DNA of 64,000 nt. It comes from Chitinophaga pinensis DSM 2588 (GTDB lineage: Bacteria; Bacteroidota; Bacteroidia; Chitinophagales; Chitinophagaceae). Shown here piece after piece: positions 2,188 through 20,984 of this stretch. The notes below the pieces were generated by a model that had not been told where the DNA came from, did no database searches, and saw nothing but the letters and a program-made list of their open reading frames with translations. Numbering within the stretch: the stretch's first letter is position 1; every line of letters begins with the position of its first letter. A program made the translations under genes and the position numbers. Location: contig NC_013132.1 in the NCBI RefSeq assembly GCF_000024005.1, positions 5,264,001 to 5,328,000 of the forward strand, written 5' to 3'.

Positions 2188-3086
2188 AAGAGTTTTTAAC
2201 CTTAGGGATGATACAACCTGTTATTAATCCCGATATTTCGTGGAATAGGACACCTCCGTTTTCTTTAAATATCAATCCAATTATAGCTGAACGAGTTTGG
2301 GAAGAAATTAAAACTGGATTGATTGAAATGCTTAGAGTCGATGGAAAGCCACACATAATATTGATTCCCGAACTACATCTCCCAGTAGCTAGAATTAATA
2401 CTATAAAATCCCTAAGTAAAAGGCATAACGTTATTATAATTTCTGGTATAGACTTTCAACAGAATCCAATAGATAAAACTCGGATTCGCAATCGGGGAAT
2501 AATATGTTTCCCCGATCAAGTTGATACAGGTAGTCCTTCGATTAAACTAACCTCAATGCAATTCGGAAAAACCTATTTTACATATATGGAAAGAAGTATG
2601 TTTAAGAAAGAGATTGCCAACATAGGTAAGTGTTCTTCCGATCCTGAACAAAACATGTATATATTTCAATCTCAAGATCTTGGAAATTTCGGCATCATGA
2701 TCTGTTCTGATATATTTGATATAGAACGTATGGCTTTTTACCAAGGGCAAATTCATCATTTATTTATTATTTCGTTAAACAAAGACCTAAACACCTATTT
2801 CGCAATGGCAGAGTCATTGACCAGACTTTTATATTGTAATGTGACAATATGTAATACAGGGTATTATGGAGGCACTGTATCCATTTCTCCATACAGTGAT
2901 CCTAATGAACGGACTATTTACAAATATATTGGGCAAAGAATGTTTAATAGTCATGTTATAAATATACCTCTGAAGTCACTAAATACCGCACAAGAATTTG
3001 ATTTTATAAGAGATGACAAGGAGAATATTAAATTCAAAGCTTCGCCTCCTTCATATCCCAAAATAAAATCAAACAATAACGCTTGA
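2184..3086 (+). CDS. Nitrilase/carbon-nitrogen hydrolase-fold protein, DRT partner
   Basis: A 300-residue protein with nitrilase superfamily layout. The Glu of the triad is in IPELHLP (E63), the probable Lys is near K129 (QFGKTY), and the Cys is C174 in GIMICSDIFD, followed by the typical late motif CNTGYYGGTVSISPY. Nitrilases hydrolyse or condense C-N bonds through this Glu-Lys-Cys triad; in RT-nitrilase defence systems the domain is thought to act as effector, with substrate unknown to me. Its start overlaps the stop of the upstream gene by 4 bp (ATGA). No signal peptide or membrane segment is seen, so it should be cytoplasmic. A separate rather than fused nitrilase is the notable point. 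The fold is fairly certain; the role in defence is inferred from the neighbour. Confidence 0.75.
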   Translation: MKEFLTLGMIQPVINPDISWNRTPPFSLNINPIIAERVWEEIKTGLIEMLRVDGKPHIILIPELHLPVARINTIKSLSKRHNVIIISGIDFQQNPIDKTRIRNRGIICFPDQVDTGSPSIKLTSMQFGKTYFTYMERSMFKKEIANIGKCSSDPEQNMYIFQSQDLGNFGIMICSDIFDIERMAFYQGQIHHLFIISLNKDLNTYFAMAESLTRLLYCNVTICNTGYYGGTVSISPYSDPNERTIYKYIGQRMFNSHVINIPLKSLNTAQEFDFIRDDKENIKFKASPPSYPKIKSNNNA

Positions 3087-3418: not shown

Positions 3419-5302
3419 ATGAAAGCAACAGCAGCTAGCCTTTTAGCAGTTGTTAAAGGCCCCAAACAATTCGTAATCCCTGTTTATCAACGAACTTATA
3501 GTTGGCAACGCAGCCAATGTCAGCAACTATTTCGTGACATAATAAAAATTGGAGGAAATACGGCGTCCAATGGTCATTTTATTGGCTCTGTCGTGTACTT
3601 CCAAGAAAGTATTTACAATACCACAGATGTGCCGCGTTTGTTAATTATTGACGGTCAACAGCGTGTCACCACTGTAAGCCTTGTGATTTTGGCGCTTTCC
3701 GAGTTTATGAAAGCGAACGAAGTAGAGTTAGAAACAAACGTCGCAAAACTTCGAAACTATTACCTGCTCAATCCAGAGGAGGAAGGAGAACTAGGGTATA
3801 AACTACTGTTGACGAGAAAGGACAAAGAGACATACTGTAATCTTCTGGACGGCCGTCGACCACCCGAAGATCATTCGTTGCGGCTGACAGAAAATTATGA
3901 GTATTTTAAGGGTCAAATTACGAGTGAAAATGCATCTCAAATATATAACGGTTTGATGAAACTGTTTGTTGTAGATGTAACTCTTGAAAAGGAGAAAGAC
4001 AATCCCCAGCTCATCTTTGAAAGTATGAATTCCACCGGATTAGATCTGTCACAGGCGGATCTAATCCGAAATTACATTCTAATGGGACAGGACATCGATA
4101 TGCAACAAGCATTGTATGAGAATTACTGGTATCCGATGGAGAAAAGCTTCGGTAATGAATATACTACGCATTTCGACCGCTTTGTAAGGGACTATTTATC
4201 AGCAAAAACCAACGTAATATCTAATACTGGAGCAGTTTATGCGGACTTTAAAACCTACACCAGTGGATGGCTTATAAAAGATCTCCTTGCTGAGCTTACC
4301 AAATATGCAGCATACTATGCAAATATGGTGCTGCAAAAGGAGAAAGACGCAAGTTTACTAGCCGCCTTCAAGGTGATCACTATCCTCAAAGTTGACACCG
4401 CTTATCCATTCTTATTAGCAGTTTACAATGATTATAGTAGGAATACTATTGATAAGATTGCATTTCTGAAAATTTTAGATCTGATCATAAGCTACATCTT
4501 TAGACGAGCAGTTTGTGGAGTGCCAACGAACAGCCTCAATAAAACATTTCTTACTTTGTATAAATCCATTGACAAGTCGGACTATGTAGATAGTCTTGCT
4601 GCAACTATGTGTTTATTCGAAGGCTCTAAGCGTTTTCCCAAAGAAAACGAATTTAATAGAGAAATCAAGATCAAGGATTTATATAATTTCAGGCAGAAGA
4701 TGTACTTCCTAGATAAAATGGAAAACTACCGCAGGAAGGAAGTTGTGCCTGTCAATTCATATACAGTTGAACATATTTTACCGCAAAATGAAGAACTTAA
4801 CTCTGATTGGCAGGAGATGCTGGGCGAAAATTGGAGAGAGATACAGAAATCCTGGCTTCATACACTAGGGAATCTAACGCTTACGGGGTATAACTCAGAA
4901 CTAAGCGATCGGTCTTTTTTATATAAAAAGAAGATTGAAGGTGGGTTCAATCAATCCCCACTAAACCTTAATAACTACCTGCGCAAGGTAGATGTTTGGA
5001 ATGAAAAACAGATTCAGGAACGTGCGGAAGAATTAGCGAACATAGCGTCTGCGGTTTGGCGCTATCCGAAACTTCCGGAAGCAAAGCTGACAGCTGTTGC
5101 CGAAGTACAGCGCGCGCAAGATAGTCAATATTCCGTTAACAACTTTGACGCATTAACTGGCGATATGCTCCGCCTTTTTGAAGTGTTAAGAATACGAATA
5201 TTAGCGCTAGATGAATCAGTGACAGAGGATGTAAAAAAGCTCTATATCGCATATAAAACCTCCACTAACTTTGTTGACATTGTGGAACTGCTACATTTGT
5301 GA
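3419..5302 (+). pseudogene. GmrSD-type restriction protein (DUF262 + DUF1524 + DUF5655), 5' part, truncated by IS3 insertion
   Basis: The N-terminal DUF262 domain (residues about 10-220) shows IPVYQRTYSW and IIDGQQR (77-82), the ParB/Srx-like nucleotide-binding motif of GmrS. The DUF1524 HNH-type domain (about 440-510) shows VEHILPQN and LGNLTLTGYN, the nuclease motif of GmrD. A DUF5655 tail starts near residue 575 (FEVLRIRILALDESV). GmrSD enzymes are NTP-dependent type IV restriction enzymes acting on modified phage DNA. The DUF5655 domain is cut after TNFVDI: the last seven codons and the TGA come from the IS. The rest of the gene resumes in the same frame at 6548. Excision of IS plus one TSD copy restores an uninterrupted frame. 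The truncated product keeps both catalytic domains, so residual activity is possible. Confidence 0.9.
5280..5282. repeat. Target site duplication, left copy (TTG)
   Basis: TTG immediately left of the IS3-family left end, repeated at 6546-6548. Removing the element and one copy gives ...GTT GAC ATT GAT CCG CAG..., a continuous DUF5655 frame, which confirms the boundaries. Confidence 0.8.
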
Positions 5303-5690: not shown

Positions 5691-6515
5691 ATGTGTAAAG
5701 TGTTTAAAGTAAGCCGCAGTGGCTATTATGCCTGGTTAATTAGAAAACCTTCAAAACAGGCGATTGAGAATCACGCTCTAAGCGATAGAATTGAAGCAAT
5801 ATACCGTTCTGGCAAAGGCCGGTATGGAAGTCCTAAAGTAACCAGGGTACTCAAATCAGATGGAATACATGTATCACAACGGAGAGTAGCCCGGATCATG
5901 AGGTCAAAAGGGCTCCGTAGTGTAATTGTAGGTAAGTTTAAAGTCTGTACTACGGATTCTAATCATGACAAAGAGGTATCTTCTAACATATTAAACAGAG
6001 AATTCACTGCAACGTCACCATCAGAAAAATGGGTCTCAGACATTACATATATCCGTACAAAATCCGGGTGGCTCTATCTCACTGTCATTATGGATCTGTT
6101 TGACAGGAAGATACTGGGATGGGCGATGAGTAAAGGGATGACAGCAGCAGAAACAGTAGTAGCAGCGTGGAAAATGGCTATCAGGAACAGGTCTGTAAAA
6201 GAGCATATGATCATCCATTCAGACAGAGGCGTACAATATGCCAGTCATGAATTTCGGATATTGCTCAAATCAGGTCAAATAAGGCAAAGCATGAGCCGTA
6301 AAGGAAATTGCTGGGATAATAGTGTATGTGAAAACTTTTTCAAAATTCTCAAGTCAGAAACAGGGATTAACATCATTTACGATTCCTTTGAGGTTGCCAG
6401 AAGAGAAATATTTGAGTTCATAGAAATCTGGTATAATCGAAGGAGAATACACTCCCGACTGGGATATATGACACCTGAACAATTTGGAAATTCTTTAATC
6501 AAACAAGCGGCTTAA
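5691..6515 (+). CDS. IS3-family transposase OrfB (DDE integrase domain)
   Basis: 274 residues from the internal ATG, with the frame open upstream to the A6G slip at 5604, so the functional product is probably an OrfAB fusion of about 390 residues. An HTH_21 segment (RYGSPKVTRVLK) precedes the rve domain. The catalytic Asp-Asp-Glu residues are in WVSDITYI, IHSDRGVQY and NCWDNSVCENFF, the D,D(35)E spacing of IS3/retroviral integrases. It ends 30 bp before the right end of the element. It looks intact. Confidence 0.95.
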   Translation: MCKVFKVSRSGYYAWLIRKPSKQAIENHALSDRIEAIYRSGKGRYGSPKVTRVLKSDGIHVSQRRVARIMRSKGLRSVIVGKFKVCTTDSNHDKEVSSNILNREFTATSPSEKWVSDITYIRTKSGWLYLTVIMDLFDRKILGWAMSKGMTAAETVVAAWKMAIRNRSVKEHMIIHSDRGVQYASHEFRILLKSGQIRQSMSRKGNCWDNSVCENFFKILKSETGINIIYDSFEVARREIFEFIEIWYNRRRIHSRLGYMTPEQFGNSLIKQAA

Positions 6516-7002: not shown

Positions 7003-7400
7003 CTGTTTGATACCATCCATAGATATTCTCGTTATACATAGAGTTTAGCAAGCCTAAAAAGAAAGAAGTTTACATCCATTTGACTAAACATATAGCATCT
7101 AGAACATGAATGATAGTTGACTAGACCTTGTCAGACAGCATTGAGTACCTGTCAAGCAATTTCGAGGTGTTTCGCCTTTAAAATCCCAACATCACGGGCT
7201 ATATTCAACGCAATCGTAAATCCACCGCTTGTGTGAACACCTTTATCGATTTTAGATTTCTTTCAAAAAGGTGTTGCTGGATTTAAAAAAGCAATACATA
7301 ACCGACAAAGTCATAAATTGCAGTAACGCCAAGCCTCGGCTTTATACAGCCGGTGGATAGAGTGACGAAAAATAAAAAACCTTATAAAACATTCGCATCA

Positions 7401-8327
7401 ATGAACAATCCTCCCACCAAACATCACTACGTTCCGGAAGGATATTTAAAAGTCTTTACCAATTTTCAAAACTCGCTTTGGCAATTTAAAAAGGATTACA
7501 GGAAAATATCGCTCAAAACGCCTGCTCAAGTCTGCTACGAGGTTGATGCAAACCGTTTTAAGGATAAACGTAATCTGTTGAACCATGACAATACCGATGA
7601 CTACTACGTAGAAAAAGAGTCTTTTAAATACCAGGAGATTGGCTATGGAAAAATTATTGGAACTATTATCAAATATCAACGGGGCGCACAAGTAATAGAC
7701 AAGCATCGATATCGCCTTTTTTTGGAAACACTCGCCACTATAAAGAGAAGAAACCCTTCAACCCGCGAAGGACTTATTGAAGCATTTAAAAACGGTTATA
7801 AAAGTGAGGAAGGCATAAAAAGGTTTAGGGAATATCTGTCAGAACAAACTGGTCTTAAAGAGCCTGTGTCGCATCTGGAAACGAAAATAAGAACACATTT
7901 TGCGAACCGCTCCCGGGACGCTAATTATCAATATGATATGTACCTCAGTGCATTCATAAACAAGGGCCAGTTTACAGTAATTGCTGAATTAACTAATGAT
8001 TTTTACCGGTTAAAACAATACATACTGCATCCTCCAGTGGGCTGGCAGTTCATCACGTCTGATAATCCCGGGTTTACAATATATGATGGTAAGGTGGTCA
8101 GCTTAGGCGGATTTGAGGGAGATTACGAGTTTCATTTTCCAATATCACCTGAGGCATGTTTATACCTGAATTCGAAGCATGTAGAAGACAACCGGCTGAT
8201 AGAGAAAACGATCTACCATGAGTGGATTGACCAATCTGTAGTACACACGCTTAATCTGTCAACCCATGCCATAAGCATGAAGGCTATTTTCGCACGTGAC
8301 AGAAGTATCTTGGAAATCTACAAATAG
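7401..8327 (+). CDS. DUF4238 domain-containing protein
   Basis: 308 residues from ATG 7401. An upstream GTG at 7353 is in frame, but conservation starts right after 7401 with the family hallmark (PPTKHHYVPEGYLKVF). The DUF4238 hallmark HHYVPxxYLKxF and later GWQFITSDNPGF are visible. DUF4238 proteins are widespread, of unknown biochemical function, and often found in defence or mobile regions. There is no signal peptide or membrane helix. It stands alone, about 500-600 bp from either neighbour, between the restriction gene and the Gabija-like pair. Family assignment is firm; a defence role is inference from context only. Confidence 0.8.
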   Translation: MNNPPTKHHYVPEGYLKVFTNFQNSLWQFKKDYRKISLKTPAQVCYEVDANRFKDKRNLLNHDNTDDYYVEKESFKYQEIGYGKIIGTIIKYQRGAQVIDKHRYRLFLETLATIKRRNPSTREGLIEAFKNGYKSEEGIKRFREYLSEQTGLKEPVSHLETKIRTHFANRSRDANYQYDMYLSAFINKGQFTVIAELTNDFYRLKQYILHPPVGWQFITSDNPGFTIYDGKVVSLGGFEGDYEFHFPISPEACLYLNSKHVEDNRLIEKTIYHEWIDQSVVHTLNLSTHAISMKAIFARDRSILEIYK

Positions 8328-8841: not shown

Positions 8842-11184
8842 ATGTATCTAAAAACGATATGCATAAAAAACTACCGTAGGCTTAAAGACGTTAAAATTAA
8901 TATACAAAAGGACACAACAATTTTTGTAGGAGCCAACAATAGTGGTAAGACCTCTGCCACTCATATATTTCAGTCATTTCTCAGTGGAAAGGCTGACTTT
9001 TCCTTACATGACTTCAGCGTCGATTGCTGGAAACTAATTAAGGATATTTCCCAGTCAACCAATATTGTCGAAGATATTTACAAGCTGCCAACAATCTCCC
9101 TCGATTTATGGTTTGAAGTTAGTGAAGATGATTTGAACTATATTATTGACCTACTACCCAATCTGGATTGGGCTTCGCAACCGGTAGGAATACGACTAAT
9201 GTATGCGCCGAAAGGACATGATAACTTACTTTTAGAATACCAGACTGCCAAGGCAGATGCCCAGAAAAAGGGGAAAGATATGTTTCAGCCCTGGCCCAAG
9301 GATCTGTCCGACTACTTAACCAAAAGACTTAACCAGGAATATGAAATCAATTATTTTGTTTTAGACGCTACACAATTTGATCGGAACTATAACATCATTG
9401 ATCCCTCCTACACTCCCCATGCTCTACATGAAGATAAAGACAACAAGAAAACTGGTGCTGCTATAATCAGATCTTTGATCAAAGTAGACTTCTTAAACGC
9501 CCAACGTCATCTCTCAGATAACATATCCACAGGCAGATCGGAGGATCTGTCGAAAAGGTTTAACCGATTTTACGATCGCAACCTAGAAAAAAGAGAAAAC
9601 GATCCTGAGATCTATAAGGCTTTGTTTGATTCCGAATCACTGCTAACCCAGCATCTGGAAAAGGTATTTCAGCCCACATTAGATAGCCTAAATAAATTAG
9701 GCTATCCAGGTTTTACTAATCCTAAACTTGTCATCAAAGCCGCCTATAGTCAGGAATCAGTAAGCCAGTACGCACAATTGCATTATTCTATTGGCGATTT
9801 AGACCTTCCGGATAAGTATAATGGACTTGGATTTAAAAACCTAATCTATATGGTGATTGAAATTCTAGATTTTCATGAGCGATGGAAAGAAGATACAGAT
9901 ACTAAAGCACCATTACATTTGATTCTCATAGAAGAGCCAGAAGCACATCTACATGCACAACTTCAACAGGTATTTATCCGGCAAATTCTAAATATCATTA
10001 ATCCAAGCGGGCAGAATGACGGCTTCAATACCCAGCTGATCGTCAGTACCCACTCTCCGCATATTATTTATGAAAGTGGATTTTTACCGATAAGATACTT
10101 CAGGCGAACTTCCGAAGTTTCAAAATCTCCAGTGTCTGAGGTATTGAACCTGTCTACCTTTTACAATGAGAGTGAAAAAGACTCTCGGGAGTTTCTCGAG
10201 AAGTATATGAAATTGACTCATTGCGATTTATTTTTTGCAGATGCAGCCATCTTGGTTGAGGGAAATGTGGAAAGATTATTATTGCCACTGATGATCGAAA
10301 AATGCCAAAAAAGCCTGCAATCCAATTATCTATCAGTAATTGAGGTGGGAGGGGCCTTTGCGTATCGATTCGAGCAATTGATTTCTTTTCTTGGCTTAAC
10401 CACCCTTGTCATAACAGATCTGGATAGTGTGTTTCCCCCTAAACCACTCCCTCCTAACAATGAAACGACAGAAAGCGCAGATAAGAGCGAGAAAAGTGAA
10501 GAAGAGGATAATGAGGAGGATATTGAAGAAGATGATTACGATGATGAGGAGGATAGCGAAGAAGAGGAGCAGAAAGGTAAAACGAAAAAAAAGACTGGGG
10601 CATGTTCGTACAGTACGCCCGATGCCATCACGTCAAATTATACTTTACGGCACTGGTTACCTAAAAAAACAAAAATAGCTGAGATCCTAACCTGTTCTGA
10701 ACAGGAGCGTACCCGCATCCAATCGGCCACCAACCGCGCTTCTGTTCAAGTTTGTTTCCAAAACAAAGTGGAGATAAATTGGGAAGGTAAAACTGATACT
10801 AATTGCGGGCGCACATTAGAAGAAGCATTTGCTTTCGAAAACCTAGAATGGACGCAAAAAATTGAAAATAAACACCTCAACCTAAGAGTCATTCTAAAGA
10901 CAAAGCAACTAACCGTTAGTGAAATTTCAGCTCGAATAAGCCGACGAGTACAGTCATCCAATTTCGAAAAAACAAATTTTGCATTGGGTCTATTAATGGC
11001 AAATGCGGACGAATGGAACGTTCCAGTTTATATTAAAGATGGCTTATATTGGCTAGATAAAATGTTAAATCCACCCCACCCATTCAATACCCTACCTGAA
11101 TACGTCAATATTCATGAGGATACTATACTACAGCCAACATTCCCTGCTGAGGAAGGAGAAAAAGAACCCAATACTTTTGAATGA
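8842..11184 (+). CDS. gajA-like: OLD-family ATPase/TOPRIM nuclease, Gabija GajA-like
   Basis: 780 residues. The N-terminal ABC/SMC-type ATPase has Walker A GANNSGKT (30-37), Walker B LILIEEPEAHLH (near 362-373) and a switch His motif STHSPHI (near 401). The C-terminal TOPRIM domain has the glutamate motif ILVEGNVERL (near 469) and DxD motif VITDLDS (near 523). GajA is an ATP-sensing sequence-specific DNA nickase that works with the UvrD-like GajB. At 780 residues it is longer than canonical GajA (about 580). Part of the excess is a highly acidic low-complexity tract (near 543-583, mostly E/D) followed by a short Lys-rich stretch, inserted after the DxD motif. The helicase gene starts 20 bp downstream. 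Canonical Gabija versus another class 2 OLD-UvrD pair cannot be settled by eye. Confidence 0.85.
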   Translation: MYLKTICIKNYRRLKDVKINIQKDTTIFVGANNSGKTSATHIFQSFLSGKADFSLHDFSVDCWKLIKDISQSTNIVEDIYKLPTISLDLWFEVSEDDLNYIIDLLPNLDWASQPVGIRLMYAPKGHDNLLLEYQTAKADAQKKGKDMFQPWPKDLSDYLTKRLNQEYEINYFVLDATQFDRNYNIIDPSYTPHALHEDKDNKKTGAAIIRSLIKVDFLNAQRHLSDNISTGRSEDLSKRFNRFYDRNLEKRENDPEIYKALFDSESLLTQHLEKVFQPTLDSLNKLGYPGFTNPKLVIKAAYSQESVSQYAQLHYSIGDLDLPDKYNGLGFKNLIYMVIEILDFHERWKEDTDTKAPLHLILIEEPEAHLHAQLQQVFIRQILNIINPSGQNDGFNTQLIVSTHSPHIIYESGFLPIRYFRRTSEVSKSPVSEVLNLSTFYNESEKDSREFLEKYMKLTHCDLFFADAAILVEGNVERLLLPLMIEKCQKSLQSNYLSVIEVGGAFAYRFEQLISFLGLTTLVITDLDSVFPPKPLPPNNETTESADKSEKSEEEDNEEDIEEDDYDDEEDSEEEEQKGKTKKKTGACSYSTPDAITSNYTLRHWLPKKTKIAEILTCSEQERTRIQSATNRASVQVCFQNKVEINWEGKTDTNCGRTLEEAFAFENLEWTQKIENKHLNLRVILKTKQLTVSEISARISRRVQSSNFEKTNFALGLLMANADEWNVPVYIKDGLYWLDKMLNPPHPFNTLPEYVNIHEDTILQPTFPAEEGEKEPNTFE

Positions 11185-11204
11185 TTATTTAATTATTTAT
11201 TACT

Positions 11205-13091
11205 ATGGCTACCAGTAGAATCAATAAACCCGACACTTCAGCTGATCACGAATTAAGGAATTGTATTGATACCAAGCAAAGTTTTGTGATGATTGCAGGT
11301 GCAGGATCAGGAAAAACCACCTCGCTTATTAAAGGACTGGATTACATTAGAAGTAGATACGGCAATCAACTTAGGGCAAAACGCCAGAAAATAGCTTGTG
11401 TTACTTATACTACCAATGCTGTTGATGAAATTATCGGAGATGTGCAGGGAGATTCTTTATTTCATGTATCAACAATCCATAGCTTCCTTTGGGAGATTAT
11501 CAGCCCGTTTCAAAAAGACATTAAAGACTGGGTTAAACAGCGGGTACGAGAGAAAATAGCGAAAATTCAGCAAGCTATCCAAGAATATGGCCCTAGGGTA
11601 CAGCAAAAAACTAAGGATAAAGACCAAGCAGAGTTCTTGCGACTGGAAGAGGTTAGCAGATTGATAGATTCCGTGAACAATTTTCGCTATGAGACTGGGG
11701 CAGATTACACAAAGGGCATAATTGGACATGCTGATATACTCAGAATGGTACCAGAATTAATACAAGGTAAGACCCTACTAAAGAAAATAGTTATACAAAA
11801 ATTTCCGTTTTTACTCATTGATGAAAGCCAAGATACTGCCCCCAACGTTGTCGAATGTTTTCTTAGCGTAGACGCCCAAAAGCAGTCGGATTTTTGTTTA
11901 GGATTTTTTGGAGATCCCATGCAAAAAATCTACTTAACAGGGATTGGAAAAATTCCTGACCGAGATAATTGGAAAACTATTGTTAAGCCGGAAAATTTTC
12001 GATGTGCTTCTGCCGTATTGGAACTGATCAATCTGATAAGAAAACCGGCAGATCAAATTGAACAAACAGGTGGTAAAATGGAAAACGTTGGCGGTATGCT
12101 AACTCCGGTTGTAGGTTCAGCACGGTTATTCATATTACCTGCTAACGAAGAGAGGTCAACGAATGTGGAAAAGGTAAGGAATTTTATTGCTCGCGAGGAA
12201 CAAGATCCTGCCTGGCGCGATGATAGTGGCTCCGATCTGAAAATTTTAGTATTGGAACACCGAATGGCAGCAAAAAGATTAGGCTTTGAACAACTGCATG
12301 CTGCTTTTAAGGATGGAACGCCAGAGTCCATCGGAAGCGGCTTCAGCGAAGGAAATAGCTGGGCTCTTTCCTTATTCCAGAAATATATACTCCCTTTAAT
12401 CGAGGCTCAGTCAATTGGAAAACAGTCCAACGTGATGACTCTGCTTAGAGCATTTTCGCCGATTTTAGAAAAAGAGTATTTGCAGAAGCATAAAATTAGT
12501 GCAGAAGACCTGAAGGTTTTGGATCAAACTATAAAAGAACTAGTTGCCTTGTTTGCTGACCCGAACATTTCTGTTGCCCAAATCTTAGATCTTATTGAAA
12601 CGAGACGTTTAGCTGTTCTTGATGAAAGAATAGCCGCCAAGCTACGTGATGAACCTTTATTGATTGAGAATGCAGAAGCTATATCACGTGTACTTGAGAA
12701 ATACTTTCAATGCTCAGTCAACCAATTATTAGGATATGATAAGTATATAAGAGAAGAGTCTGTGTACTCAACGCAGCATGACGTAAAGGGATCCGAATTT
12801 AAGCGTGTTATAGTTATATTGGATGACGAGGAAGGCAAAAGGTCCACTTTGTACTCCTATGAGAAACTACTCGGACTTAAACCTCTTTCGGATACCGATA
12901 CCGAAAATATCTCAGAGGGAACCGAATCCGTTTTGGACCGTACCAGGAGATTGTTTTACGTTTGTTGTTCGAGAGCTCAAAAAGATTTGGCAGTAATATG
13001 GTTTGTCCAAGACGTTGATGAGGCGCTCGCGGTATTAAAAGATAGTATATTTTCAGATGATCAAATAATTATGGAGCATAAACTAGGTTGA
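11205..13091 (+). CDS. gajB-like: UvrD/Rep-like superfamily 1 helicase, Gabija GajB-like
   Basis: 628 residues. Motif I is AGAGSGKTTS (31-40), motif Ia-like is CVTYTTNAVDEI, motif II is FLLIDESQDTA (near 201-211), motif III-like is FFGDPMQKIY, and the C-terminal motifs are STQHDVKGSEFKRVIV (near 520) and FYVCCSRAQKDLAV (near 585). SF1A helicases of this type partner class 2 OLD nucleases. In Gabija, GajB responds to DNA termini and nucleotide depletion to activate GajA. Same operon as the nuclease (20-bp gap) and ends before a strong hairpin at 13230-13266. Longer than canonical GajB (about 500). All helicase motifs look intact. Confidence 0.85.
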   Translation: MATSRINKPDTSADHELRNCIDTKQSFVMIAGAGSGKTTSLIKGLDYIRSRYGNQLRAKRQKIACVTYTTNAVDEIIGDVQGDSLFHVSTIHSFLWEIISPFQKDIKDWVKQRVREKIAKIQQAIQEYGPRVQQKTKDKDQAEFLRLEEVSRLIDSVNNFRYETGADYTKGIIGHADILRMVPELIQGKTLLKKIVIQKFPFLLIDESQDTAPNVVECFLSVDAQKQSDFCLGFFGDPMQKIYLTGIGKIPDRDNWKTIVKPENFRCASAVLELINLIRKPADQIEQTGGKMENVGGMLTPVVGSARLFILPANEERSTNVEKVRNFIAREEQDPAWRDDSGSDLKILVLEHRMAAKRLGFEQLHAAFKDGTPESIGSGFSEGNSWALSLFQKYILPLIEAQSIGKQSNVMTLLRAFSPILEKEYLQKHKISAEDLKVLDQTIKELVALFADPNISVAQILDLIETRRLAVLDERIAAKLRDEPLLIENAEAISRVLEKYFQCSVNQLLGYDKYIREESVYSTQHDVKGSEFKRVIVILDDEEGKRSTLYSYEKLLGLKPLSDTDTENISEGTESVLDRTRRLFYVCCSRAQKDLAVIWFVQDVDEALAVLKDSIFSDDQIIMEHKLG

Positions 13092-13198
13092 GCATCGGTA
13101 TATTGGAGCGTTTGCTACTGAAATATTATTTACCACTTGCGTGTGTAATGAGGCCGAACCATACAAATCTCTTAATTTATTGACAATTAATACCATTT

Positions 13199-13266: not shown

Positions 13267-13367
13267 TCTATAGCTTATCTCCATATTTTATAATTTTTTG
13301 GTAATCAATCTAAAACGAGTTCGATTCCGGACTAGGCCCCGTGAATATTACACCTGAAAATTTTTAC

Positions 13368-14570
13368 CTAAAGATGAATATCTATATCCCTTCCTACGAT
13401 ATCAGTTCTACGTACATTAAATTTTGCAGTCCCCAGACATTTTAGAATTGATCGGAATGGGTGCCCATAAGTGTTACTGCCAACCGATATGATTGCATCC
13501 TCTTTCTTCACGTTCGGCTGTAAGTTAAAATTATACGACCCCGCATTTCCTCCATGATGAGGAACTATCAAATAATGTCGATGCTTATAGTTTAGATAAC
13601 CAGGAATAACAAAATGATCGAATTGCCCATAATGCTGATCGCCTGTCAAAAGCACGCTTTTAGTTGCAGTTCTAATTAGTAAGGAAAGTCCATCCTTATT
13701 CCTACTTCGACTATATCCAGAATTAAAAATTGTAAATCGCTTATTATCATAATAAGAGAAAAGTGGGGTCTCTTTTATAAATACTTTCCGTGTATCCGCG
13801 TTGATTGATATGAAGTTTTTATTAAGTCTAGATAGCCTTGAGAATATTACACGGGACATCAATGACGGTGTAAAATTTCTGCAAAGAATAAACTTCAATG
13901 ATGATATTGTGGTATCGGTCATCACTTTTAGAAAATGATAATGATCAACATCCCAGTGTGAAATTATCAATCCGGGACAATCATTTTGATATAATAAATC
14001 TCGATTATCATACATTGAAGCAACCTTAGAAGCTTTTGTTGAATAATGAGTTCCTGCATCGAAAATCAATGTCAACTTTTTGTTTACTTCAATTTCCGTC
14101 CAACTTCCCTGTCCAACATCCTTTATAATTAATCTTGTTCCGCCCTTATTCGGTAGTTGAAAAGTGCGTCCATACGCAGACCCAAGGTGAAAACGATAAG
14201 TCCAAAAGTATTTTTCTTCCAAAAACCTATGACTGACTGACTTTCCAAAGACATCCTCTTTAATTCCCGTCAAATCTATTTCTGCTCTAACGATAAAAGA
14301 ATCCTCTATAAGTGAGACTCTTTCTTCTTGTCTTAATCTGTCAATAGTCGATAGATTCAAAGAATAAATAGACCCTTCTCTTTTCCGATATTCATAGTTT
14401 TTGAATAAAAGCATAGTAGGACCATCTATAGGAAATTCAAGCCCCAAAATTTCAAAAAAACGAGAAAAGTTATTTGATTCTATAAAATCTGTTAATAGCG
14501 TTTTATTAGAAATACTTATCGATTCAATATAGATGAATATTTCACTATTAAGATGGGAAAGTTCAAACAT
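13368..14570 (-). CDS. ComEC/Rec2-type metallo-beta-lactamase-fold hydrolase
   Basis: 400 residues. After an N-terminal region of about 145 residues that I do not recognise comes an MBL domain in ComEC C-terminal style: DVGQGSWTEI (151-160), DAG (171-173), metal motif SHWDVDH (204-210), LLTGDQ (308-312), VPHHGG (336-341) and SVGSNTYGHP (362-371). ComEC-type MBL domains are predicted nucleases or phosphodiesterases using two metal ions, and all ligand motifs appear present. No membrane segments, so this is the soluble hydrolase only. It lies 21 bp downstream of the GHKL ATPase gene on the same strand, so it is probably co-transcribed and is the likely partner effector. The fold is well supported; substrate and role are unknown. 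Confidence 0.8.
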   Translation of the reverse strand: MFELSHLNSEIFIYIESISISNKTLLTDFIESNNFSRFFEILGLEFPIDGPTMLLFKNYEYRKREGSIYSLNLSTIDRLRQEERVSLIEDSFIVRAEIDLTGIKEDVFGKSVSHRFLEEKYFWTYRFHLGSAYGRTFQLPNKGGTRLIIKDVGQGSWTEIEVNKKLTLIFDAGTHYSTKASKVASMYDNRDLLYQNDCPGLIISHWDVDHYHFLKVMTDTTISSLKFILCRNFTPSLMSRVIFSRLSRLNKNFISINADTRKVFIKETPLFSYYDNKRFTIFNSGYSRSRNKDGLSLLIRTATKSVLLTGDQHYGQFDHFVIPGYLNYKHRHYLIVPHHGGNAGSYNFNLQPNVKKEDAIISVGSNTYGHPFRSILKCLGTAKFNVRRTDIVGRDIDIHL

Positions 14571-14591
14571 ACAAACATAAGTTACGTTACA

Positions 14592-16523
14592 TCACGCTTC
14601 GAACATATTTAATTGAGCTTTGTCGTTCAAATATGCTCTTATTCTTGTCTCTTTCAGAAATGGTGCCTGACGTATTTTCTCATGTAAGTTTAACAATCTA
14701 CTCTTTGTCCTTCGCATCACCATATCATATTCCATGGGAAAAATCACCACTCTACCGTTCATCTCAGTGCTCTTTCCTGATTCGAGTGGATCAATTTTAC
14801 TACCTAGTACGAAACAAACAACTTGAGAGTAATCTTTCAGCAACCCCTTGGAAAAAAGTTCCTTTACATATTTCCATGCTTGTCCTTTTTGTTCTCGGTC
14901 AATGGGAATACCAGGACGTTTTAATTCAATTACAACCAAACGATCTACCCCTATTTCGCCAAAATCATCTTCATCAAATTTGGGCAATGAATATAATCCC
15001 ACAGTCCCATCCTTTAAAATTGCAAAATCTGGCCTTGTGGAGCTACCTTTTATTTCAGAGCCAAATAACTGTTGAATCACCTGAGTCATTCCCTTATTCG
15101 ATGTGTATTCGATAGTCTCATATTCAGGACCAAAAATCCAAAGCCCTCTGTGAAAGAGTGGTTGAAGTTCTTGAACTTCATCTGAACCCTCATTCAACAC
15201 CTTCGATTGCAACTTTTCTATCAATTTAGTTCTCCATTCTATTTCGTCTAATACGATTTTTGCGACATCAATATCCCATTCTTCAATAATCTTACTGAGA
15301 TTATCTAGATCTTCAACAGAGGCATTCGCCAAGGTGTTAATTAAGCCGTATTTAGATTCAGAAGTTTCAAGTTTCGCCAATAACGAAGCGATTTTTTCCA
15401 ACTCGTCATTTCCAATTGATGGGCATTCCTCCTGCACTTCCCTTACAAATTTCTCCCATTTCTCTCTGCTTACTATACCCATTTTCCTCAATGTAGGCTT
15501 TATACTACCCTCTATATCTTTAAACGCCTCTTCTCTTTGTCCTTTTGTCAAATCAAGTATATGCTCCTTTACACTGGTATAAATAGCAATACACGATTTT
15601 TTGTATTTATCATCATAATTTTTAAAGCCTGTCCAATCTGGCAGTACCGCATCTTCGATACTATCAGCATTGACTATGAATATATATCTCTTCGCTACAG
15701 ATTTTCTGCCATCTATCAAATGTTCACTTCCACTCCCTTTCCAGGTACACTCACCCACTAAACGATTCTTAACCTGCCAAGCAATACCATGAAGTTGCGT
15801 AGATTTGTCCGTAGCCTGAACGTCAATAACTTTAACAGGAAAAATCCCAATATCTTTAATCTCAACATTATATTCTTTGATATGATTCTTGGGAACGTCC
15901 TCAAAGCTGACCTTTTCAGTGTTAACCCAAACAGTAAAATTTGGATCTACTAAGAATCGCATTCCGATTTCCTTCTTTGCATCCTCAAAACTTAATCTAG
16001 GTTTAAATGCCTTCTCAATAAAGATAGTAGTACCATGAGAAATGCTACTTTCTTTCTCATCAATCTTTTGATACGCGAGACGATTATTATTATCAATGAA
16101 AATTCTAAATATTCTCTCAATACCCTGCTTTGTTGTTGAGACCTTGAACGATTCTCCGAAAGCAAAGCTAGCCAAACGTCCCTTTCCATTTTTTCCGAAG
16201 GCTGGTCGCAAGGCAATCTTATCTTTATGATCAGGAGGAACATGAGCGAATCCTCCCATCTCCTTAAGCCTTTCGTAGGCAAGTACCATAAATCTGGTCT
16301 CAAACTCTGTTTCTGTCATTCCATGACCATTGTCCGTTATTTCAAAAGGATCCTCATGTTTTTCTGGCCATTTAATTTTGACTTCAGTTGCACCAGCATC
16401 CCAAGCATTAGCTATTAATTCGATTATTGCAACCTTCGGCTCGCTAAATATAGAAGAGCCAGCAAACGACTCAAGAAATCTGTCTGAGAATGAGGCGTAT
16501 TGTTTTTGACTCATAGATGTCAA
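14592..16523 (-). CDS. GHKL (Hsp90/MORC-like) ATPase with C-terminal PD-(D/E)XK nuclease-like domain
   Basis: 643 residues. The N-terminal HATPase domain has the N-box AIIELIANAWDAGA (E35, N39, D42) and the G1 box TDNGHGM (63-69), followed by an S5/transducer-like region. The C-terminal part (about 455-600) reads EVQELQPLFHRGLWIF, then RPDFAIL, then VVIELKRPG (530-538). The D..ELK arrangement is typical of PD-(D/E)XK/Shedu-like nucleases. GHKL ATPases clamp by ATP-dependent dimerisation, and bacterial MORC-like versions occur in restriction and defence loci. First gene of a two-gene operon with the MBL hydrolase 21 bp downstream. Cytoplasmic, no signal. Domain calls are motif-based; the pairing with a ComEC-type MBL is not a named system I know. 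Confidence 0.8.
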   Translation of the reverse strand: MTSMSQKQYASFSDRFLESFAGSSIFSEPKVAIIELIANAWDAGATEVKIKWPEKHEDPFEITDNGHGMTETEFETRFMVLAYERLKEMGGFAHVPPDHKDKIALRPAFGKNGKGRLASFAFGESFKVSTTKQGIERIFRIFIDNNNRLAYQKIDEKESSISHGTTIFIEKAFKPRLSFEDAKKEIGMRFLVDPNFTVWVNTEKVSFEDVPKNHIKEYNVEIKDIGIFPVKVIDVQATDKSTQLHGIAWQVKNRLVGECTWKGSGSEHLIDGRKSVAKRYIFIVNADSIEDAVLPDWTGFKNYDDKYKKSCIAIYTSVKEHILDLTKGQREEAFKDIEGSIKPTLRKMGIVSREKWEKFVREVQEECPSIGNDELEKIASLLAKLETSESKYGLINTLANASVEDLDNLSKIIEEWDIDVAKIVLDEIEWRTKLIEKLQSKVLNEGSDEVQELQPLFHRGLWIFGPEYETIEYTSNKGMTQVIQQLFGSEIKGSSTRPDFAILKDGTVGLYSLPKFDEDDFGEIGVDRLVVIELKRPGIPIDREQKGQAWKYVKELFSKGLLKDYSQVVCFVLGSKIDPLESGKSTEMNGRVVIFPMEYDMVMRRTKSRLLNLHEKIRQAPFLKETRIRAYLNDKAQLNMFEA

Positions 16524-16973
16524 TGTTTATAATATGGGGGCTTCATGAAAGTATTTTCGGGAATTGATAAATCTACAATTTTTACAGATTTTGGCCAAAA
16601 ACTCATTAATACCACCTTTTTATATACCCCCAATGACACATAAATCTAGTCACTCCATATGTTTTAAACTTACATACTTGTTAGTCAGACGTAAAGGACT
16701 ATCAAATCAACGTTTTCAAACAGCATTAGACTAATTTACTGATTATAAAAGCTAAATGGTTCGAGTATCTACCGCCACTGGGCACTAAAGCGGAAAGGTC
16801 GGATTGAATGTGTACCCGGATTGTTAGGAATGGGATAATAATTCCAGGAGTTCCCCGTCATTCAGTGGTTGCTGTATCTTCAGAATTGAACACCTAAATT
16901 GTAACTTTTTAATAATCACACCAAACATCTCATTCACTAGCCATATCATGTTACTTACACCCACCACCTAGAA
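16524..16973. other. Intergenic, 450 bp
   Basis: Upstream region of the GHKL operon and downstream of the lipoprotein gene, both on the minus strand. It holds one copy of the 29-bp motif (16758-16786). No other structure is recognised. Confidence 0.4.
16758..16786 (+). repeat. 29-bp dispersed intergenic motif, copy 2
   Basis: Starts GGTTCGAGTATC and ends CCACTGGGCACT. Strong match to the copies at 6931 and 21133. Confidence 0.6.
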
Positions 16974-17523: not shown

Positions 17524-18183
17524 CTATTCAACAAAATGATTTAAAATAAAACTATTACCTTCCTGCTGTTGCCTAGCTTTTATATCCTTACCCCAATTAT
17601 TCCAATGAATTTGATGCATTATGGGAGAACTTGAATGGCTATTATTCATCATATCATCATTACCCACCACTCTTTGGTCCGTGACATTTTTATACCAATC
17701 TTTCAGTCCGAACAAATGCATCACCTCATGAAAGGCTGTCGGAGCAGAGCCATAATAACGTCCCTCTGGCTTATGAGAATTCCCCATTCTTGTTGAAAAG
17801 TCTGTGAAGTGTTCTATGCCTATCCTGTCCCATTTGCCAGGCACAGGATTTTTATCTTTAGCATATAGTTCCTTACTAAATCCACCAGAAGCAGATTGAT
17901 ATTCAGAATCCTCAAGTTGAAGTAAGTTATCTCCATTTCTAGTTTTTTCATCATTAAGTCTAGCTATATCTTTCTCTGTTGCCAGCTCATACTTGAAATC
18001 TAAATTAACAGTAGTTGTAGTCTTTCCATCTTCATTTTTTGAGGTATTACTCAAAAGGTTAGTGTGATTTTTCAGGAACGAGTTATATTCACCTACTCTT
18101 TGATCGGCTTCAAACCCAGTTACATAAATAGTTGATGAAAAAGTAATTGTCCAATTACCATTTCCATCTATCTGAACACCGAT
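17524..18183 (-). pseudogene. RHS C-terminal toxin tip: HExxH metalloprotease, separated from its RHS core by a TGA
   Basis: This stretch is in the same frame as the RHS gene and is split from it only by TGA at 18184-18186. It continues as IGVQIDGNGNWTITFSS..., exactly where RHS proteins of this group continue after GKDVW, so the TGA most likely replaces TGG (Trp). The tip contains HEVMHLFGLKD, a metzincin-like HExxHxxGxxD zinc motif, and SSPIMHQ as a possible Met-turn, so it is a predicted zinc peptidase toxin. The first ATG after the stop (18054) begins within the tip, and no ribosome binding site is obvious, so separate expression is doubtful. Confidence 0.75.
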
Positions 18184-20563
18184 TCATACATCTTTGCCAT
18201 TGGGATCAACATAATTTACGGGAGAATTCAATGTATAATTATAAGGAGAATAGTTATTCCATTTGCTTGCCAAAGGGTCTATTGCATGCCATCTGCCGAT
18301 TTGATTATCATACATTCTTGCTCCATAATCATACAATTCTAGGCCTGCACCATCTGTAAACTCTTTAGTCTGCAACTCCTTCCCATTATATTTATGCCGA
18401 TTTACGGCATAATTCACTCCCTTTAACGCATTTGTAGAAATACCCGCCATCGTCAGCCCATAAGGATAGTAATGTGTTTCTTCTAACAACGGCCCACTAC
18501 TCACTCCCATCACTACGTTATCAAAATACACATCCTGCTGACTCTCATTGCTGGTATAAACATACATATAGCCACTCTTCGCCACAGCCATTTTTTCTAC
18601 ACCAATCTCCTGCAACTCATCCGGACTCGACTTCACCTGCCTAACACCACTATTATCCTCTACTAATTTAAAATCATCATCAAACAATACAAAATTTAAA
18701 TATGATTTCGGACGATCTGAATAACCATTATCAGAATTTTTCTCTTTTAGGCGCTGATAGGCATTTTCATAAAAATCGTTAGTAAACGGAGTTCCATTTG
18801 ATATATCCGTCGCCGCATGTGAAGACCCTTCGCTAGTGCCACCTCCAAAAGCCTGCACTAAACCCGACACCATATCCTCAATAGGTGCTTGGTTTCCGTT
18901 ATCCGTCGGTCCTTCAGATTTATAAAAGGCCCGTGCATTGATCTGTACAGTATCACCAACCATTACTCGCAGCACTATAGATGGTCCTATTTTCTTTCCT
19001 CCAATTTTGCCATTTAATTTAGCTACGGATTTATTCTCCTGCGTTGTCTCATCTTGAGGATATCCTGCTGGCTTGTCAACTCTGGTTTCGGTCACATTGC
19101 TGAATAACGCAACTTCTTTCTCTGCCATGCTTGTCTCCATAGTAGCAGCATACATCGTAAAGTCCGTCTGATCTGTCAGAACTGTTCTGACATTTCCTAA
19201 ATGGTCCTTTTCGAAATAATCATATGCATATTGGATGGCTGCGCCACTGTTATAAACAGCTCTTATCCTACCTTCTTCATGGCTGATCAATTCGAGACTG
19301 TCCTGCTTATAAACAAATGCGCCGTCGTATCTTGTGACAGTCGTCATAGGACTACTACCCATATTATCAACGACTGTTTTTGATAATTTAGTACCTAAAG
19401 CATCGTAGGTGTAGGTAATTGTTCCCTTACCAGTTACTGTAATAACTTCAGGAAGATTCAGGTGATTATAGGTAATGGAAGCAATTTTTTTATTCAGGTC
19501 TGCGATCATATTACCGTTCGCATCATAAGAATAATCTTTAGTACCGGTATTACCATCTATAAAATCCCCTAACATTGCAGGTCTCGTAATAGATGAATCA
19601 ATTTCTCTTACGCCAAGTAACCTATTACTATTCGCTGGATAGGTATATACCAGACTATCAATCGTTTTACTAGCTGTACCAACCATTCCCTTCTGCAACA
19701 TCGTTTTGATATTGCCATTCGCATCATAACTTATATTAGTGACAGAAAAGTCTTTTACTCTCAATGCCCAGTTGTCACCATTTCTCTGGGTAAAGGCTGC
19801 ACTTAACAGACGATTGGACCTGTCATAATTATAGCCATATGCCATGGCGCTATCTGCACGGGTTTTCCACTTAACACCGGCGATATTGCCGTTAAACTGA
19901 TTATCTGTAAAACCATAGTCATAACTCAGTTCCTGTCCGAACCAGTTAGATGCGACATTACCACTATTTACAAAGTTTTTGTTGATGCCCTGTAACCAAC
20001 CCCGGATATTGTAGGCATAATTTAATGTATCTAATAGACTTCCTGCTGCTGTGACTCCCAGACGTTTAAGACGCAGCCTGCCGGATTCATCATAGCTGTT
20101 GGATGCGATAATTTTTTCGTCAGCCACATTATCATTTAACCGCTTACGTACTGTCAATAGACGGCCTCCGTTATCATAGGTCATGCTTGTCAGCAAAGTC
20201 GTCTGTGCCGTCACACTTCTGGGATTCTGATGACGCAGATAAGCTGTCAGTATTACACCTTTAAAATTATACAATGTTGAAATTATATCTTTACCACCCT
20301 GGTTATTTTCACTAATAGTCTGTACAACCTGCCACTTATCATTATAGTAGGGAGTCGTTGTGAGCCACTTATCTGTACCCAGTACCCGCACTTTAGTGCC
20401 TGTCACCAATCCCTGCAACATATCTGTCACCGGTCTTCTCGTCGGATAAAGTGTATCCGACGCCTGCAATTTCAAGGTATCTGCTCCCGCAAAAGCGAGC
20501 TTACCAGGGTAGTTATAATTATCGTAAAAAGTATAAGTTAGTGGTGTCAGTGAAGATATGAAA
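18184..20563 (-). pseudogene. RHS/YD-repeat core protein, 5'-truncated by IS remnant and ended by premature TGA
   Basis: About 790 residues of RHS/YD-repeat shell: repeats such as YDANGNIKTM, YSYDANGNMIAD and TYTYDALGTKL, the RHS-associated core (YYPYGLTMAGIS, YNGKELQTKEF, DYGARMYDNQIGRWHAIDPLA) and the junction motif DPNGKDV. RHS proteins encapsulate a C-terminal toxin and are exported. The coding sequence begins abruptly at the left end of an IS remnant (20564). Upstream reading (to 20628) is IS sequence, and the N-terminal half with its signal peptide is missing. At the 3' end TGA separates the toxin tip. With both ends damaged the gene is almost certainly inactive. Confidence 0.88.
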
Positions 20564-20984
20564 TGCCCCCAAAAAGTTAGACACTTTTGGGGGCACTTAT
20601 TATGAATAAACAAAGCAAATACAGCCAAAAAACGAAGATTTTAACGATTCGTTCTATTAAGGCCGGTAAAGAATCCTGCAGAATTGCAGCAAGAAGACTG
20701 GGTTGCGCAAAAGCACTGTTCGCGACTGGATATTACATTATCAGGAACGTGGTCTTGCGGAGTTAAGCATTCGCAACGGAAGCTATAGAGGAATTTTTAA
20801 GGCTGAAGTAATCAAGCATATGTTAAAAAACAAGGCATCTTTATTGCGGACAACAATTCTTTTTGGTATACCTAATACCAGTGTAGTATGGAGATGGCGA
20901 CAGACCTACGAACGCTTTGGAACATATATTGCCAGTACAAATAATACAAAGGAACAAGATGCGCAATATATGTTTCATGAATAA
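20564..20984 (+). mobile_element. IS3-family remnant: left end plus frameshifted orfA
   Basis: Starts with TGCCCCCAAAAAGTTAGACA, a typical IS3/IS150-group terminus, here forming a hairpin with ACTTTTGGGGGCA (to 20595). An orfA starts at 20602 (MNKQSKYSQKTKIL...RRLGCAK) and shifts frame near 20709 in an A-run (one A seems missing), continuing as STVRDWILHYQERGLAEL to TAA 20984. Two helix-turn-helix segments remain; orfB and the right end are absent. Its insertion removed the 5' part of the RHS gene, or a later deletion did. Confidence 0.75.

Follow-up and report, generated by a model that had tools for sequence, protein, structure and literature searches.

The 64,000-nucleotide stretch of Chitinophaga pinensis DSM 2588 analysed here (NC_013132.1, positions 5,264,001 to 5,328,000; hereafter the window) contains two adjacent genes, one encoding a GHKL ATPase with a nuclease-like C-terminal domain (the ATPase) and the other a soluble ComEC-like metallo-beta-lactamase (MBL) protein. 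We found that this pair is a lineage-specific cassette and not a general two-gene defence system, since it is rare elsewhere and sits in one block common to the window and Chitinophaga oryziterrae. Relatives of the MBL protein are repeatedly encoded next to type I restriction, SIR2-HerA or DruA-NurA-HerA systems. By analogy with characterized systems, we regard it as rather probable that the cassette combines a paraMORC3-type nuclease acting alone, like VcSduA of Vibrio cholerae, with an MBL protein that serves as an interchangeable accessory DNase and not as a fixed partner. The MBL protein is likely to be such an interchangeable helper because its relatives mostly adjoin other, unrelated immune systems.

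To survey the ATPase, we scanned one genome per species (84,980 species) with two peptide patterns taken from the ATPase profile. The 62 loci recovered, 8 of them from Algoriphagus, are no census because only these two patterns were used; 34 of the loci had 10 kb on both sides and 28 had less than 10 kb on a side. An MBL gene, detected with the MBL profile, lay beside the ATPase gene at one of the 62, in C. oryziterrae. The 61 loci without it include two from Chitinophaga itself, C. arvensicola (L045) and C. pinensis YS-16 (L098, a broken gene). Viral contigs yielded 5 ATPase loci, none with an MBL gene, and 2 MBL loci. Clustering of the neighbours at 67 ATPase loci revealed an integrase-like cluster in 11 (8 from Algoriphagus); 5 loci have a large gene of restriction type, and among the clusters listed each of the others occurred in at most 3 loci outside Algoriphagus.

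Searched from the MBL side, the MBL profile (E ≤ 1e-20) matched 3 further genomes of 244 in the own family, and 3 of 301 and 3 of 295 in two other families. None of the nine MBL loci outside Chitinophaga (seven genera; neither the L044 copy nor the viral loci L106 and L107 are counted) had the ATPase in the fetched flanks. Within a draw of 74 relatives, 45 belonging to the genus Chitinophaga, the MBL gene (again at E ≤ 1e-20) and a close ATPase were found in the same 2 of the 45; a separate search of the genus found the MBL gene in 2 of 7 genomes, both known already. One draw of 395 genomes from the phylum gave 4 matches to the ATPase profile, including one (G412) over residues 1-206 only, and 7 to the MBL profile, the own genome included. 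The other six MBL matches, with frames of 796-827 aa and E values of 4e-16 to 4e-22, were taken as ComEC and left out. The whole-genome counts are lower bounds because the larger draws score few candidates per genome.

The window and the C. oryziterrae locus (NZ_WRXO01000013.1, G1215) have a single 3.4-kb block in common, in which the ATPase gene is 94% and the MBL gene 90% identical at the nucleotide level. Beyond this block the sole match is between RHS-type genes (65%), which lie in opposite relative orientation. The ratios of non-synonymous to synonymous divergence (dN/dS) in this comparison are 0.05 for the ATPase and 0.19 for the MBL gene; this purifying selection on each indicates that both open reading frames (ORFs) are real, maintained genes.

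A previous, sequence-only reading of this stretch had proposed a two-gene system acting as an ATP-gated nuclease pair. Taken as an obligate system, this would have the GHKL ATPase sense or remodel the invading DNA and control the MBL nuclease, with no protection from one gene alone. The spacing of 21 bp on one strand, the block common to two genomes and the presence of both genes in the same 2 of 45 Chitinophaga-genus genomes are what such a system would predict. We nevertheless consider it distinctly unlikely, given the lack of an MBL gene in the DNA available around 61 of 62 genomic and 5 of 5 viral ATPase loci, L045 and L098 of Chitinophaga among them, the lack of the ATPase in the fetched flanks of all nine MBL loci elsewhere, and the activity of VcSduA as a single gene in the available part of its report (PMC12137116). 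As a general pair the proposal was rejected on these counts (1 of 62, 0 of 9), rare adjacency being what that reading had itself named as speaking against it. The part that survives is the co-occurrence within the genus, as one block.

The MBL relatives were found beside type I restriction genes in several arrangements. With gaps counted without stop codons, the MBL gene lies ~150 bp after hsdR in L117, where hsdS, DarT and macro-like genes are also present (assigned from the pooled tally and by eye); between hsdS and hsdM in L133, where the order on a single strand is hsdR-hsdS-MBL-hsdM, ~9 and ~1 bp separate the MBL gene from its neighbours and a putAbiC gene lies beyond; ~45 bp after hsdR and ahead of a NOV_C gene in L135; 98 bp from a divergent hsdM in L137, with hsdS and hsdR next (the last two by eye); and 1 kb from hsdM in L138, where the contig end cuts the MBL gene, whose sequence is divided between two contigs. 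Two further loci contain herA: in L134 the MBL gene follows herA by ~7 bp and a SIR2-like gene precedes herA, and in L116, which ends 0.6 kb past the MBL gene, it follows herA by ~590 bp with NurA and DruA genes before. The next same-strand upstream gene is part of an ATP-driven DNA-handling machine in 6 of 10 MBL loci.

We compared these neighbourhoods with control regions using PADLOC (E ≤ 1e-15, within 5 kb). A defence match was present at 7 of the 9 MBL loci, and in the pooled analysis 65 MBL neighbours (the window's 6 included) matched 236 families; the Pfam tally of the 65 neighbours has 25 of 60 families listed. The controls, 133 proteins from 14 of 16 regions (L154 and L167 were left out), matched 4 IetA models, all through one AAA protein in L164. 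Fisher tests of MBL loci against controls gave p = 0.001 for any PADLOC match and p = 0.004 for type I restriction, values that are indicative given the small number of loci and the two same-genus pairs among them. Enrichment near defence genes, which the sequence-only reading had offered as a check on its pair, therefore holds for the MBL family, but with partners other than the ATPase. On viral contigs, an MBL relative lies near the PADLOC candidate defence gene PDC-S06 (L106:12003-14327, E 1e-196), and the MBL gene of L107 has no recognised partner by eye.

Another explanation is that the two genes are independent defence genes that happen to be adjacent within an island, in which case the MBL protein would be a defence nuclease acting by itself and functionally unconnected to its neighbours. 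The variation of MBL partners from locus to locus, and the MBL genes without a recognised partner in L136 and in viral L107 (by eye), are consistent with this. The tight spacing in L133 (one strand, ~9 and ~1 bp) and L134 (~7 bp), on the other hand, suggests co-expression with the systems there, and we judge this explanation unlikely.

The MBL protein (400 aa) has no transmembrane-like stretch. Residues D171, S204-D207, D209, H210, D311 and P337-G340 are invariant in 21 aligned proteins (window included), and 235 residues of the region 142-400 align with ComEC. Its N-terminal domain (1-140) had no match among those listed for the whole protein, the domain not having been searched alone, and a sequence search of the PDB with the MBL protein gave no match. 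Plasmid and phage records contained one partial match each (63-64% of the query), the former annotated as ComEC/Rec2 and the latter unannotated. Metagenomic proteins include relatives such as P0122 (69%). Identity with ComEC/Rec2 itself was rejected, as TIGR00361 scored 43 bits against a cut-off of 190, over the MBL part only, and the membrane channel part is missing. Identity with Avs1a (AVAST type 1) was also rejected: the MBL protein was not among the 2 matches of NF041809 (cut-off 420 bits) in the genome at E ≤ 1e-3.

In the structure model of the MBL protein, residues 1-3 are the only segment with a pLDDT below 50; no long disordered gating insertion is visible, the loop 361-370 (average 67) being of low confidence. 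This bears on the possibility that the MBL protein is a proteolytically gated pro-nuclease of the HamM/Avs1a/CanC type, opened by a protease encoded elsewhere or by a non-classical one such as the GHKL fusion. Those proteins are MBL proteins of similar size, resemble DNA-uptake nucleases and are recruited by Hachiman, AVAST, Lamassu and DRT, as described in the available part of PMC12799240. Against this stand the model just described, the lack of an Avs1a match and the result that no trypsin or caspase domain was found among the neighbours scanned singly with Pfam, which together make a gated pro-nuclease very unlikely.

For the ATPase, Pfam recovered the GHKL domain as PF13589 (HATPase_c_3, E 3e-18). 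Across an alignment of 18 ATPases (window included), residues E32, N36, D61, G63, G65, D496, E530 and K532 do not vary, nor do G107, G110 and G112 of the GHKL domain. The C-terminus had no convincing Pfam match. A BLASTP comparison with an E. coli phage gene deposited as ParaMORC3 aligned residues 19-206 (E 2e-14) and 428-551 (E 2e-4), pairing ELKRP with EMKRP. On the basis of this two-ended alignment, the published make-up of paraMORC3 and its link to VcSduA, we assign the ATPase to paraMORC3, its GHKL domain being likely joined to a PD-(D/E)XK-like nuclease, and by analogy it is predicted to work like GHKL-Shedu. A distant kinship of its C-terminus to SduA_C is likely, since hhalign of the nuclease region with 6 SduA_C proteins gave a probability of 89.9% (E 1.7e-6). 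These proteins came from 6 of 7 loci found in same-genus genomes, the seventh giving no ORF. Past the GHKL domain, in the position of the S5 fold, the ATPase model has strands and helices, and good alignments stop near residue 213. By sequence, the PDB returned PMS2 and MutL (best 4e-4, ATPase part only) and a designed protein at 0.8; fold searches with the model returned Hsp90, MORC, MutL and topoisomerase among the matches listed, the nuclease part being unmatched among these.

Two further traces of this family are present in the window genome, a second ATPase fusion copy, 30% identical, and a decayed C-terminal fragment of a third (L119 and L120; G000:C1:2561863-2563692, 5556499-5556939), neither with an MBL gene beside it. 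Elsewhere, GHKL relatives adjoin DNA cytosine methyltransferase genes on a haloarchaeal plasmid (NZ_CP081960.1, L171) and in an E. coli phage (PV340563.1, L124).

The ATPase could alternatively be a restriction enzyme of the BbrUII/HgiDII kind with its partner methyltransferase encoded elsewhere. NF050001 does match the GHKL part (E 1e-28), and some GHKL relatives adjoin a DNA cytosine methyltransferase or a type IIG-like gene. We consider this extremely unlikely, however, as the match scores 100 bits against a cut-off of 550 and covers residues 24-223 only, and as there is no methyltransferase among the genes scanned around the window ATPase.

Taken together, the family assignments read earlier from the sequence alone were largely borne out: the GHKL ATPase with a PD-(D/E)XK-like C-terminus by the PF13589 match and the invariant D496, E530 and K532, and the soluble ComEC-like MBL protein by its invariant metal-ligand motifs and the lack of a transmembrane-like stretch. 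The accompanying statement that no named system was known for this pair does not hold for the ATPase half, which is by now of a known kind, paraMORC3, with the architecture of the single-gene VcSduA.

How might the two proteins work together? Under the reading favoured here, a paraMORC3-type nuclease with an accessory DNase, the GHKL domains would dimerise on ATP and clamp DNA, and clamping would license the C-terminal nuclease to cut invading DNA, so that the fusion would both sense and cut, the role supposed for VcSduA. The MBL nuclease would then deliver a second hit to DNA already nicked or opened, raising the damage to the invader or the infected cell. Such an accessory DNase would benefit wherever an ATP-driven machine opens, nicks or moves DNA. 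Everything in this account past gene order and family membership is what we infer. More tentatively, and with somewhat less than even confidence, we propose that an undescribed family of soluble ComEC-type nucleases may be a plug-in module of prokaryotic immunity, without a protease gate, that joins ATP-driven defence machines of the type I restriction, SIR2-HerA, DruA-NurA-HerA and GHKL-Shedu kinds and delivers the second hit by finishing the DNA that these open or move, perhaps docking via the N-terminal domain. In the literature searched, which includes few subscription papers, we found no report of operons for type I restriction or HerA defence that contain an MBL gene in this way. The MBL protein as a portable helper would be a new version of a known theme, argued on thin but controlled evidence.

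Several observations weigh against the favoured reading. On the ATPase side, distant relatives in L061, L088, L089 and L095 (~36-45% identical) have a type IIG-like restriction gene directly upstream, of the large restriction-methyltransferase type and called type IIG by PADLOC in L089 (E 4e-253). In the alignment with the phage ParaMORC3, nothing corresponds to the RPDF aspartate (D496). PF14082 (SduA_C/DUF4263) was not matched by the C-terminal piece in hmmscan up to E 10, nor by the ATPase in the search of the window genome; the phage ParaMORC3 is also without it. The ATPase model is middling (pLDDT 69.5), with low confidence over the C-terminal domain, and its nuclease fold therefore rests on the motifs and the profile match. 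As for the cassette, the intergenic gap differs between the window and C. oryziterrae (21 and 149 bp), and the two genes have diverged unequally at synonymous sites (0.19 and 0.31), so that part of their history may have been separate. On the MBL side, nuclease action is deduced from ComEC, and the substrate could instead be RNA or a nucleotide. The family evidence comprises nine loci outside Chitinophaga in seven genera, and two of these, scanned in full, have no PADLOC match at 1e-15: L118, with AbiV-HEPN and HNH-like genes on one side and a KAP NTPase on the other, and L136, with no recognised defence gene and a weakly MukB-like gene further off.

The features of the window are collected in Table 1. 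The ATPase frame is listed from a TTG, whereas the alignment of relatives begins at the ATG at 16514; in ATG numbering ELIANAWDAG starts at 32, DNGHGM at 61, RPDF at 494 and VVIELKRP at 527, and in the MBL protein SHWDVDH starts at 204 and VPHHGG at 336. The layout given by the sequence-only reading, two open frames 21 bp apart on one strand, was correct, all motifs that it quoted were found in the translations with their key site residues invariant among aligned relatives, and the defence island that it described was confirmed by Pfam and PADLOC for the Gabija, GmrSD-type and RT-nitrilase genes. The RT gene may begin before the window. The tRNA-like 28-bp repeat has 7 exact copies in the genome, 2 of them in the window, and none of the reversed pattern; loose matches on the plus strand number 6, against a mean of 1.85 per strand in shuffled sequence. 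A tRNA search at the repeats found none. From their sequence the repeats are possible integration or attachment sites; the idea of tandem integration that they raise is a weak one.

Table 1. Features of the window (positions count from its first nucleotide).
Feature	Position	Strand	Remarks
MBL gene	13368-14570	-	open frame, 400 aa, ATG start
ATPase gene	14592-16523	-	open frame, TTG start as listed; likely start ATG at 16514, 640 aa
Intergenic gap, 21 bp	14571-14591	-	149 bp in C. oryziterrae
GHKL ATPase domain, residues 8-213	15876-16493	-	N-box E32-N36, G1 D61-G65
Restriction-endonuclease-like C-terminal domain, residues ~440-615	14670-15197	-	D496, E530, K532; profile-profile match to Shedu SduA_C
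MBL protein N-terminal domain, residues 1-140	14151-14570	-	found in most aligned relatives
MBL nuclease core, residues 142-400	13371-14147	-	metal-ligand motifs intact
Two-gene cassette, block common with C. oryziterrae	13365-16786	.	90% and 94% nucleotide identity, two pieces
Repeat resembling a tRNA 3' end, possible attachment site	16756-16785	.	outer edge of cassette; weaker copy at 13197
RT-nitrilase (DRT) genes	160-3086	+	PADLOC RT_UG6 3e-64, profile positions 289-915 of 925; RTasNitrilase 2e-87
GmrSD-type restriction gene	3419-5302	+	PF03235, PF07510
IS3 transposase	5691-6515		between GmrSD-type and DUF4238 genes
DUF4238 gene	7353-8327	+	PF14022 2e-34
Gabija GajA-GajB	8842-13091	+	PADLOC E 4e-248, 1e-219; convergent with MBL gene
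RHS-repeat gene	17524-20628	-	then small ORF with HEVMH metalloprotease-like motif (by eye; no Pfam match)
28-bp repeat GGTTCGA...CTACTGGGCAC, tRNA 3'-end-like	6929, 13197 (weak), 16756, 21131, 23300	+	

The closest characterized counterpart of the ATPase is VcSduA, a GHKL-DUF4263 fusion that gives V. cholerae and E. coli protection against phages and depends on its two active sites; in the available part of the report (PMC12137116), its authors read the growth curves as direct restriction with a viable host and state that VcSduA-like proteins were formerly annotated paraMORC3. Likened by description, VcSduA and the window ATPase have in common an N-terminal GHKL domain, a middle region and a C-terminal PD-(D/E)XK nuclease (a predicted one in the window ATPase), and both adjoin a GmrSD-like system (PMC12137116). 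They differ in that VcSduA is reported with a DUF4263 signature whereas the window ATPase gives no PF14082 match, and in that the available text mentions no MBL protein ('metallo' has 0 occurrences in it). According to the accessible portion of Iyer, Abhiman and Aravind 2008 (PMC2292703), paraMORC3 consists of a GHKL domain and a C-terminal restriction-endonuclease-fold domain with E-D-ExK, and a subset are standalone genes, mainly of proteobacteria and Bacteroidetes. The window ATPase resembles it in the GHKL domain and the RPDF...ELKRP motif residues, while no MBL partner is mentioned for paraMORC3 in that portion.

The MBL protein is best compared with the pro-nucleases HamM, Avs1a and CanC, which Hachiman, AVAST, Lamassu, DRT and Canu recruit and a partner protease opens (Tuck et al. 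2025, PMC12799240, as far as the accessible text covers them). A protein of the HamM/CanC kind would be expected to have two disordered insertions over the active site and an adjacent gene for a trypsin-like or caspase-like protease. As with these proteins, the window MBL family is a predicted ComEC-like nuclease recruited repeatedly by unrelated immune systems, but its partners differ, being type I restriction, HerA and GHKL systems, and no long gating insertion shows in the model. Given that no adjacent protease was seen, that the model has no gating insertion and that Avs1a was not matched, the likeness is perhaps one of recruitment and not of being cut. If the helper reading of the MBL protein is true, a single portable helper nuclease serves restriction and defence machines that are unrelated to one another, a counterpart to the pairing of nuclease and protease in Hachiman and AVAST, apparently without the protease.

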